Origin: Nannocystineae bacterium
Lineage (GTDB): Bacteria > Myxococcota_A > Polyangia > Haliangiales > Haliangiaceae
Length of the DNA: 59,228 nucleotides
Reading direction: 5' to 3'
Assembly: GCA_007133195.1 (NCBI GenBank)
Contig: SLNH01000433.1
Coordinates: forward strand, 1-59,228
A program made the translations under genes and the position numbers. Of the stretch, positions 5,947 to 11,214 are shown piece after piece. How positions within the stretch are numbered: position 1 is the first letter of the stretch; the number at the start of each line of letters is the position of its first letter. The notes below the pieces were generated by a model. That model ran no database searches. It was given only the letters and a program-made list of their open reading frames with translations, and was not told the origin of the DNA.

Positions 5947-5961
5947 GGTAAAGTGCGGGTC

Positions 5962-6828
5962 ATGCGCACGCCACGATCGCCATCCCGCCGCCGCGCCGCC
6001 CGGAGCGGGGGATCCGGATTCACCTCGCCGCGGCCAGGGTGGGCGGCTGCCGCTCTGGCGGTCTGCGGAGTCTTGGTCCTCGCCTGCCAGCCGACGCGAA
6101 GCGCAGGTCAGGCCACCGACGACGGGAGCCCCGACGACCGCGCGACAGCCCCGACGCCGAGCGACTCCCCCGCAGACGAACACGAAAATGACTCTCGTTC
6201 GTCGGGTGATTCGGACGCCCCGGAGCCGGGGACCGAGCCGACCGATCTCGACGGCGAGCCCGCAGACGCACCGGCCAGCGATGGGGAAGGCGATGACGAG
6301 CGGGCGGGCGAGCGCATCCCTTACGTCGACGAAGATCACGCGCAGTACAGCCGCGTAGAGGGCACGGCGTTCGACAACGACTGCGAGACCGATGAGGATT
6401 GCCACGTCGGGGGCTGCTCGAGCGAAGTTTGCTCCGCCGAGCCCGGCGTGACCACGACGTGCGAGATGCCCGCCTCCGGTTGGGCGTCGTCGGGGGGCAC
6501 GTGCGGCTGCGTGGAGGGTACGTGCAAGTGGTACAAGGTGGCCGGGGAGAGCAAACCGCCCCAAAACGGAAACCAGGGCGAACCAACCCGGGCCGAGGGG
6601 CGGTCGCCCCATGCCCTCGAAGGACAGGGTGAGGCGTGCCGAGACGGCGCGTGCCCAGATCCGCTCGACTGCGTCACCTACTACGGCGTCGCCGGGACCA
6701 AGGGACCGGAGTTTTCGTCCTGCGAGATACCCTGTCCCGGCGGTAGCGACGAGCCGTGTCCCGACGAGCAGACCTGCGTGGCGATCGCCGACGGGCCCGG
6801 AGAGGTGTGCCGCGCCCGTCCCGAGTGA
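5962..6828 (+). CDS. Lipoprotein with eight-cysteine domain (paralogue 1)
   Basis: 288 residues from the ATG at 5962. A basic N-terminus and hydrophobic core end in the lipobox LVLAC with Cys42 as lipidation site. A ~75-residue acidic, Asp/Glu/Ser/Pro-rich linker follows, then a domain of about 70 residues with eight cysteines (NDCETDEDCHVGGCSSEVC, then a Cys and a CGCVEGTC cluster). The C-terminal ~65 residues form a second Cys-rich module (GEACRDGACPDPLDC onward). Eight-Cys domains of this type are known from myxobacterial secreted proteins, and their function is unknown to me. The next gene repeats the first domain. The acidic linker and disulfide-rich modules suggest a surface-exposed or periplasmic protein. 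Confidence 0.85.
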   Translation: MRTPRSPSRRRAARSGGSGFTSPRPGWAAAALAVCGVLVLACQPTRSAGQATDDGSPDDRATAPTPSDSPADEHENDSRSSGDSDAPEPGTEPTDLDGEPADAPASDGEGDDERAGERIPYVDEDHAQYSRVEGTAFDNDCETDEDCHVGGCSSEVCSAEPGVTTTCEMPASGWASSGGTCGCVEGTCKWYKVAGESKPPQNGNQGEPTRAEGRSPHALEGQGEACRDGACPDPLDCVTYYGVAGTKGPEFSSCEIPCPGGSDEPCPDEQTCVAIADGPGEVCRARPE

Positions 6829-6938
6829 CCGCGCGGAAAGGCCCAAACCGTTCGCGCGTCCGCGTGCGCCGGGGCAAGTTTCCCGATATGGTCGCGGCCA
6901 TGTGCGGCGTTAAAAACGCGCGTCCCCGGCCGCCGGCG

Positions 6939-7538
6939 ATGACGCGCGTCCTTCGAAGCCCGAATCTCGGCCTGATCGTCGCGCTGTGCGCGCTCGGCCT
7001 CGCCGCCGGCCCCGCCTGCAGCAGCGATGACGAGCCCGAGGCTGAAATACCGGCCGAGGGGGCGGGCAGCCCGGATGACGCGGCCCCGGATCCTGACCGC
7101 GGCGACGAGGCAGCAACCGGGGACGAGCCAGGCGACCCCGCAGCACGAAAGGACGCCGGCTCGCCGGACGACCGCGCTTCCGATCGAGACGATTCGGCTG
7201 ACTCGGCTGGCGAACCTGGCGGCGAGCCGGAAAACCAGGCCGATCGCGCCCCCGCGCGGGACGACGGCGCCGGCGATCCGTCCGCCGACCGCGGCGCCCG
7301 CGTTCCTGCGGTGCCGGAGGACCACGGGCAATACGCCCAGGTCGAAGGCGAGGAGTTCGAAAACGATTGCGAAAGCGACGCCGACTGCCACGTCGGCGGG
7401 TGCTCGAGCGAGGTATGCTCCGCCGAGGAGGGCATCACCACGATGTGCGTCGTCCCCGACGACGGCTGGGCGTCCCAGGGCGCCGACTGCGGCTGCCTTC
7501 AGGGCTCGTGCCGCTGGTATAAAGACGGCGGCAGCTGA
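6939..7538 (+). CDS. Lipoprotein with eight-cysteine domain (paralogue 2)
   Basis: 199 residues from the ATG at 6939, chosen because it places a normal signal peptide before the lipobox AAGPAC (Cys27). In-frame ATGs at 6888 and 6900 are alternatives, and none has a good ribosome site. After the lipidation site comes a long acidic Asp/Glu/Pro/Ala linker. The eight-Cys domain ends the protein (NDCESDADCHVGGCSSEVC, then CGCLQGSCRWYK) and matches the preceding lipoprotein almost position for position. The second Cys-rich module of paralogue 1 is missing. The two genes look like a tandem duplication in which the domain is conserved and the linkers are not. Function unknown. Confidence 0.85.
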   Translation: MTRVLRSPNLGLIVALCALGLAAGPACSSDDEPEAEIPAEGAGSPDDAAPDPDRGDEAATGDEPGDPAARKDAGSPDDRASDRDDSADSAGEPGGEPENQADRAPARDDGAGDPSADRGARVPAVPEDHGQYAQVEGEEFENDCESDADCHVGGCSSEVCSAEEGITTMCVVPDDGWASQGADCGCLQGSCRWYKDGGS

Positions 7539-7600
7539 TGAAAACCGCCTCGGCCATCGACGCTCGCGGCTCGTGTGGGCGAGGCAACCCGGGAGAAACT

Positions 7601-8131
7601 ATGAAGGCGCGACGTACGATGGTTTGTTTGTTGGCGATGACCGTGTCCTTCGCGGTCGCCTGTAACGGCGACGACGGCGACGCGGACGAAGGCGAGGCCG
7701 AGGGCGCGAGCGCCCTCGATGACATCGACCCGAGCGATGCATTCAGCCAGCTCGGCGTGGTGGTGGAGAGCAAAGGCAGCGACGTGCTCCGGCTCGAACA
7801 GGACGCGGAGCACCAGATCGAGTTCTGTTACGCTGGCGAAGGGTGCGAGGGCGCCGCGGCCACCATGGGAGATACCACCACCGTGGGCGGTGAAGGAGCG
7901 ACGTCTGTGCTCGCCAGCTCCGACCCGGATCGAAGCGTGGTGGGCGTCCGCGTCGCGTTCGAGACGAGCGGCGACGGCGAAGGCGTGGTCACCGTCGGCG
8001 AGGGTACGCTCGAGGTAGATGACGACGGTGTCGTCCCCGACGAGGACTTCGAGTTCAGCGAGATCCTCGACGTCTCCGAGCCTGTGAGCGGGGGTGAGAC
8101 CGTCTCGTTCGAGGTCGGCGCCACCGACTAG
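7601..8131 (+). CDS. Small acidic lipoprotein, unrecognised
   Basis: 176 residues from the ATG at 7601, which has GGGAGA six bases upstream. An in-frame ATG at 7538 overlapping the previous stop (TGATG) is the alternative. The signal peptide ends in FAVAC (Cys21), followed by a stretch dominated by Asp, Glu and Gly. The rest is beta-strand-like with one Cys pair (EFCYAGEGCEG) and no motif I recognise. It is the third of three co-directional lipoprotein genes and may be co-expressed with them. The stop lies eight bases before the terminal repeat of the MITE candidate. The high acidity resembles periplasmic proteins of marine or halophilic bacteria (inference). Confidence 0.75.
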   Translation: MKARRTMVCLLAMTVSFAVACNGDDGDADEGEAEGASALDDIDPSDAFSQLGVVVESKGSDVLRLEQDAEHQIEFCYAGEGCEGAAATMGDTTTVGGEGATSVLASSDPDRSVVGVRVAFETSGDGEGVVTVGEGTLEVDDDGVVPDEDFEFSEILDVSEPVSGGETVSFEVGATD

Positions 8132-8138
8132 AAAAATA

Positions 8139-8298
8139 CTAGAGCCCATCTCAAAAATCTCCCATCGCCCGACGCGCGATCCATCACCGCCAGCGGCGTT
8201 GCTCCTCAGTCACGGGCAAAAGCCCGCTCCTTCGTCGCGCCTAGCTGGCGGCGCGCCTCACACGCCGGGCTCGGTCCGATTTGTGAGATGGGCTCTAG
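8139..8298. mobile_element. MITE-like element with 21-bp terminal inverted repeats and CTAG ends
   Basis: 8139-8159 and the reverse complement of 8278-8298 match at 20 of 21 positions; the outer 15 are identical (CTAGAGCCCATCTCA). The ~120 bases between contain no ORF. If the CTAG at each end is the target duplication, the element proper is 152 bp. CTAG fits the YTAR target of the IS5 family (known for that family; the match here is inference). The right CTAG supplies the TAG stop of the EI gene, and the left end begins eight bases after the opposing lipoprotein gene. The long repeat could also act as a bidirectional terminator. Confidence 0.7.
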
Positions 8299-10076
8299 TC
8301 GTCGTCTTCGCCGTCGCCGAGCTTGGCCTCGGCATAGTACGCGCGGACCTCGTGTTTCACCTCGTCCGCGGTGCGAAGCTCCAAGAGTCGCGAGGCGAGC
8401 GACTGAAGCCCCGCGACATGGGCGGACCGCACCTTGCTCTTGATCTCGGGGATCGCGGTCGCGTTCATCGACAGCTCGCGTAGCCCGAGCCCCACGAGGG
8501 CCGGGGCTACGTACGGATCCCCCGCGGCCTCACCGCATACGCCTACCGAAACGTTCGCGGCCTTCGCCGCCCCCACCACCATGCTGATCAGCCTCAGGAT
8601 CGCCGGGTGGAGCGGCTCGTACGCGTAGGCGACGTACTCGTTCACGCGATCAACGGCGAGCGTGTACTGAATCAGATCATTCGTGCCGATCGACAAAAAG
8701 TCCACTGCCGGCGCCAAAAAGTCCGAGATCACCGCCGCCGACGGCATCTCGACCATCACGCCGACCTCGACGTCCCGGTCGAAATCTCGCCCCTCGCGCC
8801 ACAGCTCCTCTTTGGCCTCGTCGAGCACCTCACGCGCCTTCTGGAGGTCGCGCAAACCCGAGATCATCGGAAACATGATGCGGGCGCGCCCGTGCGCCGA
8901 CGCTCGCAGAAGGCCCCGGAGCTGCTGCTTGAACACCGGGCGGACCGCGCTTGTGAGGCACAGGCGCATCGAGCGCAACCCGAGCGCGGGGTTTGCCTCC
9001 GAGTGGAGATCGGGCAGGAGCCGAGAGACCTTGTCCGCCCCGAGATCGAATGTGCGAAACGTCGCGGGATGCGGCGAGAGCGCCTCGACCACCTGCTTGG
9101 CGTGCTCGTAGTGGTCCTCTTCCTCGGGAAAGCTTTCGGACGTCATAAACAAATACTCGGTCCGAAACAGCCCCACCCCGACCGCGCCGTGATCGGTCGC
9201 GCTTTTGACCTCCCGCACGTGATCCACGTTGGCGAGCAGCGCGATCTCCACTGCGTCGACCGACTCGGCCGGCAAGTCGCGGTTTTCCAGGAGCGCCGCG
9301 CCGCGGGCGGCCTCTTTGCGAGCCCGCTCGCGGTAGGCGGCGACGGTCTCCGCCGCTGGCTGAACGACGACGATCCCGCGCGAACCATCGACGACGAGCA
9401 GATCGCCGTTTTCCACGGCGGTGGTCACGTCCTCCAGGCCCACCACGGCCGGCACCTCGTTCGAGCGCGCCACGATCGCGGTGTGGGCGGTCTTGCCGCC
9501 GGCGTCGGTGGCGAGCGCCGCGACGGCGAAGCGAAACAGCTGGATCGAGTCGGCCGGAGACAGGTCGTGGGCCACGACGATGGCGTCCGGCGGGGGCCTC
9601 ACCGACGAGTCGTAGCCGAGCAGGTTGCGCAAGATGCGCTCCCCCACGAAGTCGACATCGCTCCGCCGCTCGCGAAAGTAGTCGTCATCGATCGCGTCGA
9701 ACACGCCCTTGATGTGCTCGACCGTCTTGCGGAGCGCCCACTCCGCGTTGTTGTGCTCGTCGCGGATGTAGCGCTCCGTCTCATCGACCACGTGCTCGTC
9801 ATGGAGAATGAGCTGGTGCGCCGCGATGATCTTGTAGTGCTCGCTCTCTTCCCGCTCCTCGATCTTCTCCTTGATCCACTCGAGTTGGCGATCGCTCACC
9901 CGTAGGGCGCGCCGAAACCGCGCGATCTCTTCATCGACCTCGTCGGGATCGATCGTGCGCTTGGGGATCTTGAGGCGGCTGCGATCGACGACATACGCGC
10001 GGCCGATCGCGATGCCCGGCGACGCCGCCGTGCCGCGCAGCTCCTGGCCCCGCGCTTCGGAGCGCTGTCGCGTCAC
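8295..10076 (-). CDS. ptsI: PTS enzyme I (phosphoenolpyruvate-protein phosphotransferase)
   Basis: 593 residues, a normal enzyme I length without the extra GAF domain of EI-Ntr (PtsP). It transfers phosphate from PEP to its His and then to HPr. The swivelling domain holds the active site GGKTAHTAIVARS with His198. The C-terminal TIM barrel has the PEP-binding stretch SIGTNDLIQYTLAVDR and the catalytic GVCGEAAG Cys. It overlaps the HPr stop by four bases and is the last gene of the rpoN/PTS cluster. No sugar-specific EIIB/EIIC is present, so the likely role is regulatory. The final Asp-rich tail (GDGEDDD) ends at a TAG contributed by the MITE candidate, so the natural C-terminus may have been altered. 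Confidence 0.95.
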   Translation of the reverse strand: MTRQRSEARGQELRGTAASPGIAIGRAYVVDRSRLKIPKRTIDPDEVDEEIARFRRALRVSDRQLEWIKEKIEEREESEHYKIIAAHQLILHDEHVVDETERYIRDEHNNAEWALRKTVEHIKGVFDAIDDDYFRERRSDVDFVGERILRNLLGYDSSVRPPPDAIVVAHDLSPADSIQLFRFAVAALATDAGGKTAHTAIVARSNEVPAVVGLEDVTTAVENGDLLVVDGSRGIVVVQPAAETVAAYRERARKEAARGAALLENRDLPAESVDAVEIALLANVDHVREVKSATDHGAVGVGLFRTEYLFMTSESFPEEEDHYEHAKQVVEALSPHPATFRTFDLGADKVSRLLPDLHSEANPALGLRSMRLCLTSAVRPVFKQQLRGLLRASAHGRARIMFPMISGLRDLQKAREVLDEAKEELWREGRDFDRDVEVGVMVEMPSAAVISDFLAPAVDFLSIGTNDLIQYTLAVDRVNEYVAYAYEPLHPAILRLISMVVGAAKAANVSVGVCGEAAGDPYVAPALVGLGLRELSMNATAIPEIKSKVRSAHVAGLQSLASRLLELRTADEVKHEVRAYYAEAKLGDGEDDD

Positions 10077-10360
10077 GTCTCGTCCTCGCCGAACCCGCTC
10101 GCCACGAGGTCGGCGAGCGCTCGAGTGGCGGCCTCGGCGTCTTCCCCGCGCGCCCGCACGAGGATCTGGCTCCCTTGCGACGCCACGAGCATCAGCACGC
10201 CCATGATGCTCTTCCCGTTGACCTCTTCGCCCTCCTTCTCGACGCTCACCTCACTCTGGAATTCGCTGGCGAGCTGCACGAACTGACTGGCGGCGCGCGC
10301 GTGCATGCCGAGCTCGTTGACGACCGTGACGCTCCTCTCGCTTGTCTTGTCCTCTGCCAT
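10073..10360 (-). CDS. ptsH: HPr phosphocarrier protein
   Basis: 95 residues from the ATG at 10360, the only start that gives the usual HPr length; upstream codons overlap rapZ. The EI phosphorylation site is His20 in NELGMHARAA. The regulatory serine is Ser51 in GKSIMGVLMLVA, matching the HPr kinase target site. This agrees with the HprK gene four genes into the same cluster. HPr passes phosphate from EI to EIIA-type proteins, and Ser phosphorylation slows that flow. The gene starts 14 bases after the rapZ stop and overlaps the EI start by four bases. Confidence 0.95.
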   Translation of the reverse strand: MAEDKTSERSVTVVNELGMHARAASQFVQLASEFQSEVSVEKEGEEVNGKSIMGVLMLVASQGSQILVRARGEDAEAATRALADLVASGFGEDET

Positions 10361-10374
10361 CGGGCCGCTTTCCC

Positions 10375-11214
10375 TCACCCGGTCTCGTCCAAGTCGCGGT
10401 GCCTCACCGATACGGACCACACAGGCTCGAGCTCAACCTTGAACCGCTCGACCACCGCGACCGAGCGATGTCGCCCGCCCGTGCAACCGACGGCGATCGT
10501 CAAATAGCGCTTTCCCTCGCGCTCGTACTGCGGAAGGGTAAACGACAAAAGCCGCCCCGCGTGCTCCATGAACGCGTCGGCCTCCTCGAGCCCCAGCACG
10601 AAGCTTTGAACCTCGGGGTCCCGCCCGTCGAGGCCCGACAGTCGCGCGTCGAAGTAAGGGTTGGCCAGAAAACGCACGTCGAACACGAGGTCGGCCTCGA
10701 GCGGCAGACCGCGCTTGTACCCGAATGACAGCAGCGTGACGGCGAGCTTGCCTTCACCCACGCTGTAGCGCTCCTGAATGATCCCCTTGAGCTGGTGCAC
10801 GTTGAGCTGCTCGGTGTCGAGCACGGCGGCGCGCTCGCGGAGCTCGCTCAGGATCTCGGTGTCTCGGCGGATCCCCTCCACGAGGTCGTCGCCCGCCAGC
10901 GGGTGCCGGCGCCGCGTCTCCGAGTAGCGGCGCTGAAGGATCGAGGCCGCGGCCTCGAGGTAGAGCACCTCCACATCGTGCCCCTCGCCGCGCAGGCGCT
11001 CCACCTCATCGGTGAAGTGGGCCAAAAACGGCTGCTGCCGCGCGTCCACGGAGATGGCGACCCGCCGCTCGCCAGCGTCCGAGAGCACGTCGCAAAGCTC
11101 GCGCACGAGCGGCAGAGGAAGGTTGTCGGCGCAGTAAAAACCCACGTCCTCGAGCGCTTGAAGCGCCGTGCTTTTGCCCGCCCCCGAGAGCCCTGTAACG
11201 ATGACGATCTTCAA
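10375..11214 (-). CDS. rapZ: RapZ/YvcJ-family nucleotide-binding protein
   Basis: 279 residues. The Walker A motif GLSGAGKST is at the N-terminus and the family block CADNLPLPLV follows. The C-terminal domain contains DVRFLANPYF and TIAVGCTGGRHRSVAV, both diagnostic of the family. In E. coli RapZ is an RNase E adaptor controlling GlmZ sRNA and glucosamine-6-phosphate synthesis. In other bacteria the family (YvcJ) binds GTP or ATP and nucleotide sugars, so the exact role here is inferred. The start is a TTG directly after the hprK TAA, which implies strict translational coupling. Linkage of rapZ to rpoN and PTS-Ntr genes is classic in Proteobacteria. Confidence 0.95.
   Translation of the reverse strand: MKIVIVTGLSGAGKSTALQALEDVGFYCADNLPLPLVRELCDVLSDAGERRVAISVDARQQPFLAHFTDEVERLRGEGHDVEVLYLEAAASILQRRYSETRRRHPLAGDDLVEGIRRDTEILSELRERAAVLDTEQLNVHQLKGIIQERYSVGEGKLAVTLLSFGYKRGLPLEADLVFDVRFLANPYFDARLSGLDGRDPEVQSFVLGLEEADAFMEHAGRLLSFTLPQYEREGKRYLTIAVGCTGGRHRSVAVVERFKVELEPVWSVSVRHRDLDETG

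Follow-up and report, generated by a model that had tools for sequence, protein, structure and literature searches.

The DNA analyzed here (the window, the full 59,228 nucleotides of contig SLNH01000433.1 from a Nannocystineae bacterium) holds a short hairpin-forming sequence between two convergent genes, one of which encodes PTS enzyme I. The features of the locus are as follows.

7538–8131, plus strand: convergent open reading frame (ORF), lipoprotein-like as judged by eye, with its TAG stop at 8129–8131
8132–8138: AAAAATA spacer, the entire gap between the convergent stops in the empty-site model described below
8139–8142: left CTAG, read from the sequence as one copy of a duplicated target
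8143–8294: element proper, a 152-bp hairpin, delimited by aligned copies and fold
8143–8159, plus strand: left terminal inverted repeat, 17 bp excluding CTAG
8174–8266, plus strand: conserved structured core common to the superfamily (96.8 bits with model R1, a score that is not independent, the model having been built with the window copy among its sequences)
8278–8294, minus strand: right terminal inverted repeat, matching the left one at 16/17 positions
8295–8298: right CTAG, read as the other copy of the duplicated target, with the enzyme I TAG stop at 8295–8297
8295–10076, minus strand: PTS enzyme I gene, 593 aa (Pfam PEP-utilising enzyme domains)
10073–10420, minus strand: HPr gene adjoining enzyme I (Pfam PTS-HPr)

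The convergent ORF had no Pfam match. Two adjacent plus-strand ORFs at 5953–6828 and 6756–7538 have closely similar cysteine-rich C-terminal parts and are apparently tandem paralogs.

An initial annotation of this DNA described a MITE-like element with near-perfect inverted ends, and the ends are indeed identical at 20 of 21 positions (8139–8159 against the reverse complement of 8278–8298), whereas none of 300 resamplings of the 601 bp around it under a first-order Markov model, with candidate pairs seeded from exact 10-mers, produced a match of at least 20/21. Its observations that CTAG stands at both ends and that the enzyme I stop (8295–8297) falls inside the right CTAG are likewise borne out, the latter by the minus-strand ORF at 8295–10076. 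Folding of the element strand gives −81.3 kcal/mol (z −6.7), a value reached by 0/200 shuffles. No Pfam match was found for the ORFs that cross or touch the element (8094–8483, plus strand; 7499–8149, minus strand), which together with the conserved hairpin indicates that the interior is probably non-coding. The CTAG is more plausibly a duplicated 4-bp target than part of the element, leaving 8143–8294 as the element proper; as CTAG is palindromic, a direct repeat at this locus is indistinguishable from a longer inverted repeat, and no strain with an empty site was found, which makes the target duplication at the window locus itself a putative one.

The initial annotation further held that the element supplies the stop codon of enzyme I and that its insertion redefined the C-terminus. 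When the element body is deleted together with one CTAG, the sequence across the junction is TAG AAAAATA CTA, and both genes retain their stops, 7 bp apart. Enzyme I still ends in ...GAC TAG in this empty-site model, which argues against a redefined C-terminus; the sequence itself shows that taking the element out leaves the stop intact. The claim that the element supplies the stop codon holds only in the sense that the stop is one of the two target copies and pre-existed. Similarly, the enzyme I tail past approximately query residue 570 is 23 aa long, compared with 12–45 aa (median 22) in 28 homologs, although the tail sequences vary, so that the homologs show an ordinary length and not an identical sequence. 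Enzyme I matches were found in 36/36 genomes, source included (a few via distant PEP-utilising relatives alone), and 30 loci including the window's own were compared, one of which (L280) had no stop within the locus and another (L267) no flank for the repeat test. None of the 27 homologs with enough flank had a comparable inverted repeat at the end of enzyme I, the best score among them being 8, compared with 19.5 at the window locus.

Further copies were sought in the source genome (G000; 5.64 Mb in 496 contigs), as the initial annotation had proposed, and six near-complete ones were found at different sites, counting the window copy, that span 158–160 of 160 bp at 91%–100% identity. Two long partial copies (contigs C404 and C290) and shorter matches, some possibly due to chance, were also detected. 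A gene stop was called at the junction in four of the six near-complete copies and in neither C357 nor C122; in C357, one CTAG is CTCG.

The window element is a member of a superfamily, mostly hairpins of 157–159 bp, with a core of ~95 bp. In a first search, 9/56 genomes had matches, source included; in G005, G022, G030, G034, G047, and G051 the match was to the central part of an element whose inverted ends are quite different, and in G010 and G031 no inverted ends were seen around the match. Under strict filters, and with scoring limited to 14 candidates in any one genome, the core model matched 73/282 genomes of the phylum and 63/187 genera, many genomes having more than one match. A pattern scan of named genome records returned 41 stretches from ~17 assemblies (by accession prefix), of which 27 were labeled Myxococcales or Kofleriaceae, 1 Deltaproteobacteria, and 10 Acidobacteria including Luteitalea, and the remaining three Actinomycetota, Elusimicrobia, and uncultured (one each), with the proviso that labels on MAGs may be wrong. 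Plasmid and phage collections gave no match. None of 12 loci had an Rfam match at gathering score, the single match in the window scoring 16 bits, far below its gathering threshold of 50, and among the open-access papers listed by the literature searches, no title or abstract opening describes this hairpin family. The source genome also contains a second family of the same superfamily with other ends (contigs C292, C260, C372, C70, and C80; loci L345–L349). Its visible ends (L347 and L348) start with TGCCTCGACCC after CTAG or TAG, L349 is a variant, and the copies on C70, C80, and C260 lie at contig ends.

Fourteen members (160–166 bp as cut) share a common core with covarying stems: in a test with the structure taken from the same alignment, 92.3% of cells were paired and 20/27 pairs had changed on both sides, and 0/500 shuffles scored as high. 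With 100 distinct core sequences, 91.7% were paired and 609 two-sided changes were counted against 35 one-sided ones. One nearly fixed U-G pair aside, G-U accounted for 59 of 2316 standard pairs in these 100 cores, whose alignment was fitted to a G-U-poor model and may be biased the same way. Wobble pairs are generally commoner in structured RNAs, and from the few G-U pairs we infer that pairing is maintained at the DNA level rather than in RNA. In genome G324 (L151–L162), each of the six full copies has one three-base variant repeated on its two arms, three such variants occurring overall, as though one arm had been copied from the other. This matched-arm pattern is not general, since the arms of the G004 elements mostly show fixed differences.

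Ends and target sites were compared across the superfamily. From 190 core matches, 33 were removed by hand (same place matched twice, or core near a contig end), and of the 157 elements left, 11 had weak inverted repeats, giving 146 elements, 132 with flanks of at least 400 bp on each side. In 42/146 elements CTAG stands next to both ends, and in 13 more it does so with one difference. A GG start was found in 56/146, and 30 of those 56 have TNA on both sides; 35/146 fit no target class. Body length is 157–159 bp in 41/56 GG and 32/42 CTAG elements, the window family being shorter at 152 bp. The middle base, and with it the TNA triplet, is identical on both flanks in 26/30 cases compared with 12.8 in shuffles, and TNA is thus a true 3-bp target duplication; by analogy, CTAG would be a 4-bp one. 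Target class tracks lineage loosely, because it changes nine times on a tree of 48 labeled cores, fewer than in 500 shuffles (mean 16.0, minimum 10). At two loci in G004 (L239, C5 ~123480; L228, C8 ~107840), the ends of an element directly abut those of a second copy or of a remnant, giving the impression that elements insert beside their own kind.

Gene stops are common at these junctions. Based on a home-made and error-prone gene caller (open frame plus codon-position GC), a called stop lies at the junction in 27/37 CTAG elements and in 42/95 others (TNA and unassigned) among the 132 with flanks. As a control, the same flanks contain 47 CTAG sites, 20 of them outside gene interiors; a gene stop lies at 10 of these 20 and at 133 of the 1059 TNA sites outside gene interiors. 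The excess over target sites is not significant for the CTAG class (Fisher p = 0.14) and is approximately 3.5-fold for non-CTAG elements (Fisher p = 8e-13). With earlier thresholds, a coding stop lay within 9 bp of either junction in 73/135 elements, compared with 96 of 11,160 random 18-bp flank windows. Within 200 bp, 143 junctions face a gene end, 76 of them at the stop itself. In 15/132 elements there is no junction stop and both flanks are within called genes, which may reflect caller error or insertion inside genes. Solitary ends in G324 (L163 and L164) and G004 (L230, L243, and L250, judged from ORF lists) start right after the stop of a long ORF, and one in G004 (L241) has no stop triplet at its junction. 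On the reading favored below, elements collect at gene stops for two reasons: stop codons of either strand can fall within the target motif, and insertion there does no harm; the non-CTAG classes have an extra stop preference beyond motif overlap and harmlessness as modeled here.

A rival reading is that the main role of the element is transcriptional, selection having retained it between convergent genes as a bidirectional terminator, a function that the initial annotation had also suggested. In its favor, a hairpin of −118 kcal/mol on the enzyme I strand is followed immediately by UAUUUUU (the spacer 8132–8138 read on the minus strand), and called gene ends face the element from both sides within 200 bp in 40/132 cases. 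The T-run, however, comes from the host flank and not from the element, there is none after the hairpin on the strand opposite enzyme I, and a scan for consensus terminators, which covers short loops only, was negative. Moreover, 29/132 elements lack any called gene end within 200 bp, and stem changes seldom pass through G-U, pointing to DNA rather than RNA. Termination is an improbable main role. At the window locus, the predicted hairpin could possibly end transcription of enzyme I.

Membership among MITEs, as the initial annotation proposed, agrees with what was found: the element is multi-copy, has terminal inverted repeats, belongs to a superfamily with target duplication, and contains no known protein. 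It behaves as a MITE, with the testable features of one, and is not filed under IS5 or REP. An autonomous partner was sought by end motifs in G000, G004, and G324 (draft assemblies; the partner may also have been lost) and was not found, the searches returning element copies, solitary ends, and chance-like matches alone; no contig of G000 had two element ends at IS distance. A 1.2-kb candidate pair at L250 was rejected, its flanks being mismatched and its four internal ORFs having no Pfam match.

The initial annotation had looked to an IS5-family transposase, and an ordinary IS5-family MITE whose partner was lost, missed in drafts, or belongs to an unsearched IS5 branch is a rather unlikely origin. 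TNA is the target of the IS1031 group, and the TNA class of the superfamily matches it. CTAG is reported as an IS5 target duplication (PMC10379815), and the shared target sequence and duplication length are a true resemblance. PF01609 (DDE_Tnp_1) also has matches in 12/15 other carriers. Nevertheless, the source genome has no match to any of three IS5-type Pfam families (PF13340, PF01609, and PF13359), which counts against an IS5 origin, PF13359 being without a match in 16/16 genomes and PF01609 absent from G004, G258, and G324, each of which has several copies. No IS-sized pair of ends occurs in G000, G004, or G324, and the core lies near only 1/30 PF01609 loci, a weak locus with Ns.

Another candidate origin is mobilization as a REP/REPIN-like element by a RAYT, a Y1 HUH transposase with activity on hairpins. 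The hairpin is conserved, and Y1_Tnp matches occur in 11/16 carriers, with eight in the source genome. On the other hand, no Y1_Tnp match (E ≤ 0.001) was found in 5/16 carriers (G004, G037, G314, G215, and G224), and a RAYT was rejected as sole mover on this ground, although divergent RAYTs could escape the search. HUH transposition is not known to make target duplications, which the superfamily has. The core was near 0/30 Y1 loci searched. GTAG REPs are reported to provide flanking ORFs with TAG stops from their termini (PMC3733652), but REPs are there GTAG-tagged palindromes of 20–40 bp, compared with ~160 bp in the superfamily, and no such palindrome is present here: the element is 152 bp with CTAG flanks. 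We consider this route quite unlikely. Separately, G005 has 34 weak Y1_Tnp matches on many contigs (L205, L210, L216, L219, L221, and L224), a high-copy HUH transposase-like family; judging by the agreement between the flanks of L077 and L120, this genome apparently belongs to a Kofleriaceae MAG.

Known repeat families share some of these traits. Bacterial MITEs such as RUP, Correia/NEMIS, and ERIC are alike in being short and multi-copy, with terminal inverted repeats and target duplication (PMC2229807; PMC10969869), whereas here the core structure is conserved across genera and phyla, the ends differ, and no partner was found. GTAG REPs and REPINs are also palindromic repeats outside genes with TAG-stop termini (PMC3733652; PMC3116915), but the present elements differ in length, lack the GTAG tag, have target duplication, and occur in some carriers (5/16) without a Y1_Tnp match. 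The CIR repeats of Caulobacter are intergenic, with a conserved predicted structure shared by related genomes; unlike the present elements, they consist of two arms and a linker with a GANTC site, and their target duplication is marked as unknown (PMC2229807).

We therefore favor, at a probability of roughly 85%, the reading that a MITE-like hairpin inserted into a CTAG already holding the enzyme I stop and duplicated that CTAG, and that the protein stayed the same, its stop being restored by the target duplication; both the insertion and the recombinase behind it are deduced rather than observed. The insertion site would have been that CTAG between convergent genes with stops 7 bp apart, and a recombinase supplied in trans would have made a staggered 4-bp insertion with duplication of CTAG. 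Across the superfamily, the conserved part would be the structured core, with ends varying by lineage and target (CTAG or TNA). More speculatively, and in our view with well under even odds, these would be selfish hairpins of ~160 bp found across phyla, whose covarying core, not their ends, is recognized by an undescribed stand-alone recombinase, with preferential insertion at stop codons and TNA or CTAG duplications. On this speculative reading, the scarcity of one-sided stem changes suggests that one arm serves as the template for the other in DNA, via a hairpin intermediate.

At the window locus, an apparent gain of a stop codon is explained as reuse of an old one, and by inserting at stop codons such elements can spread through compact genomes without damage to genes. 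The usual MITE pattern is reversed here, the structured core being conserved and the ends differing, and this gives a way to test what mobilizes orphan bacterial MITEs.
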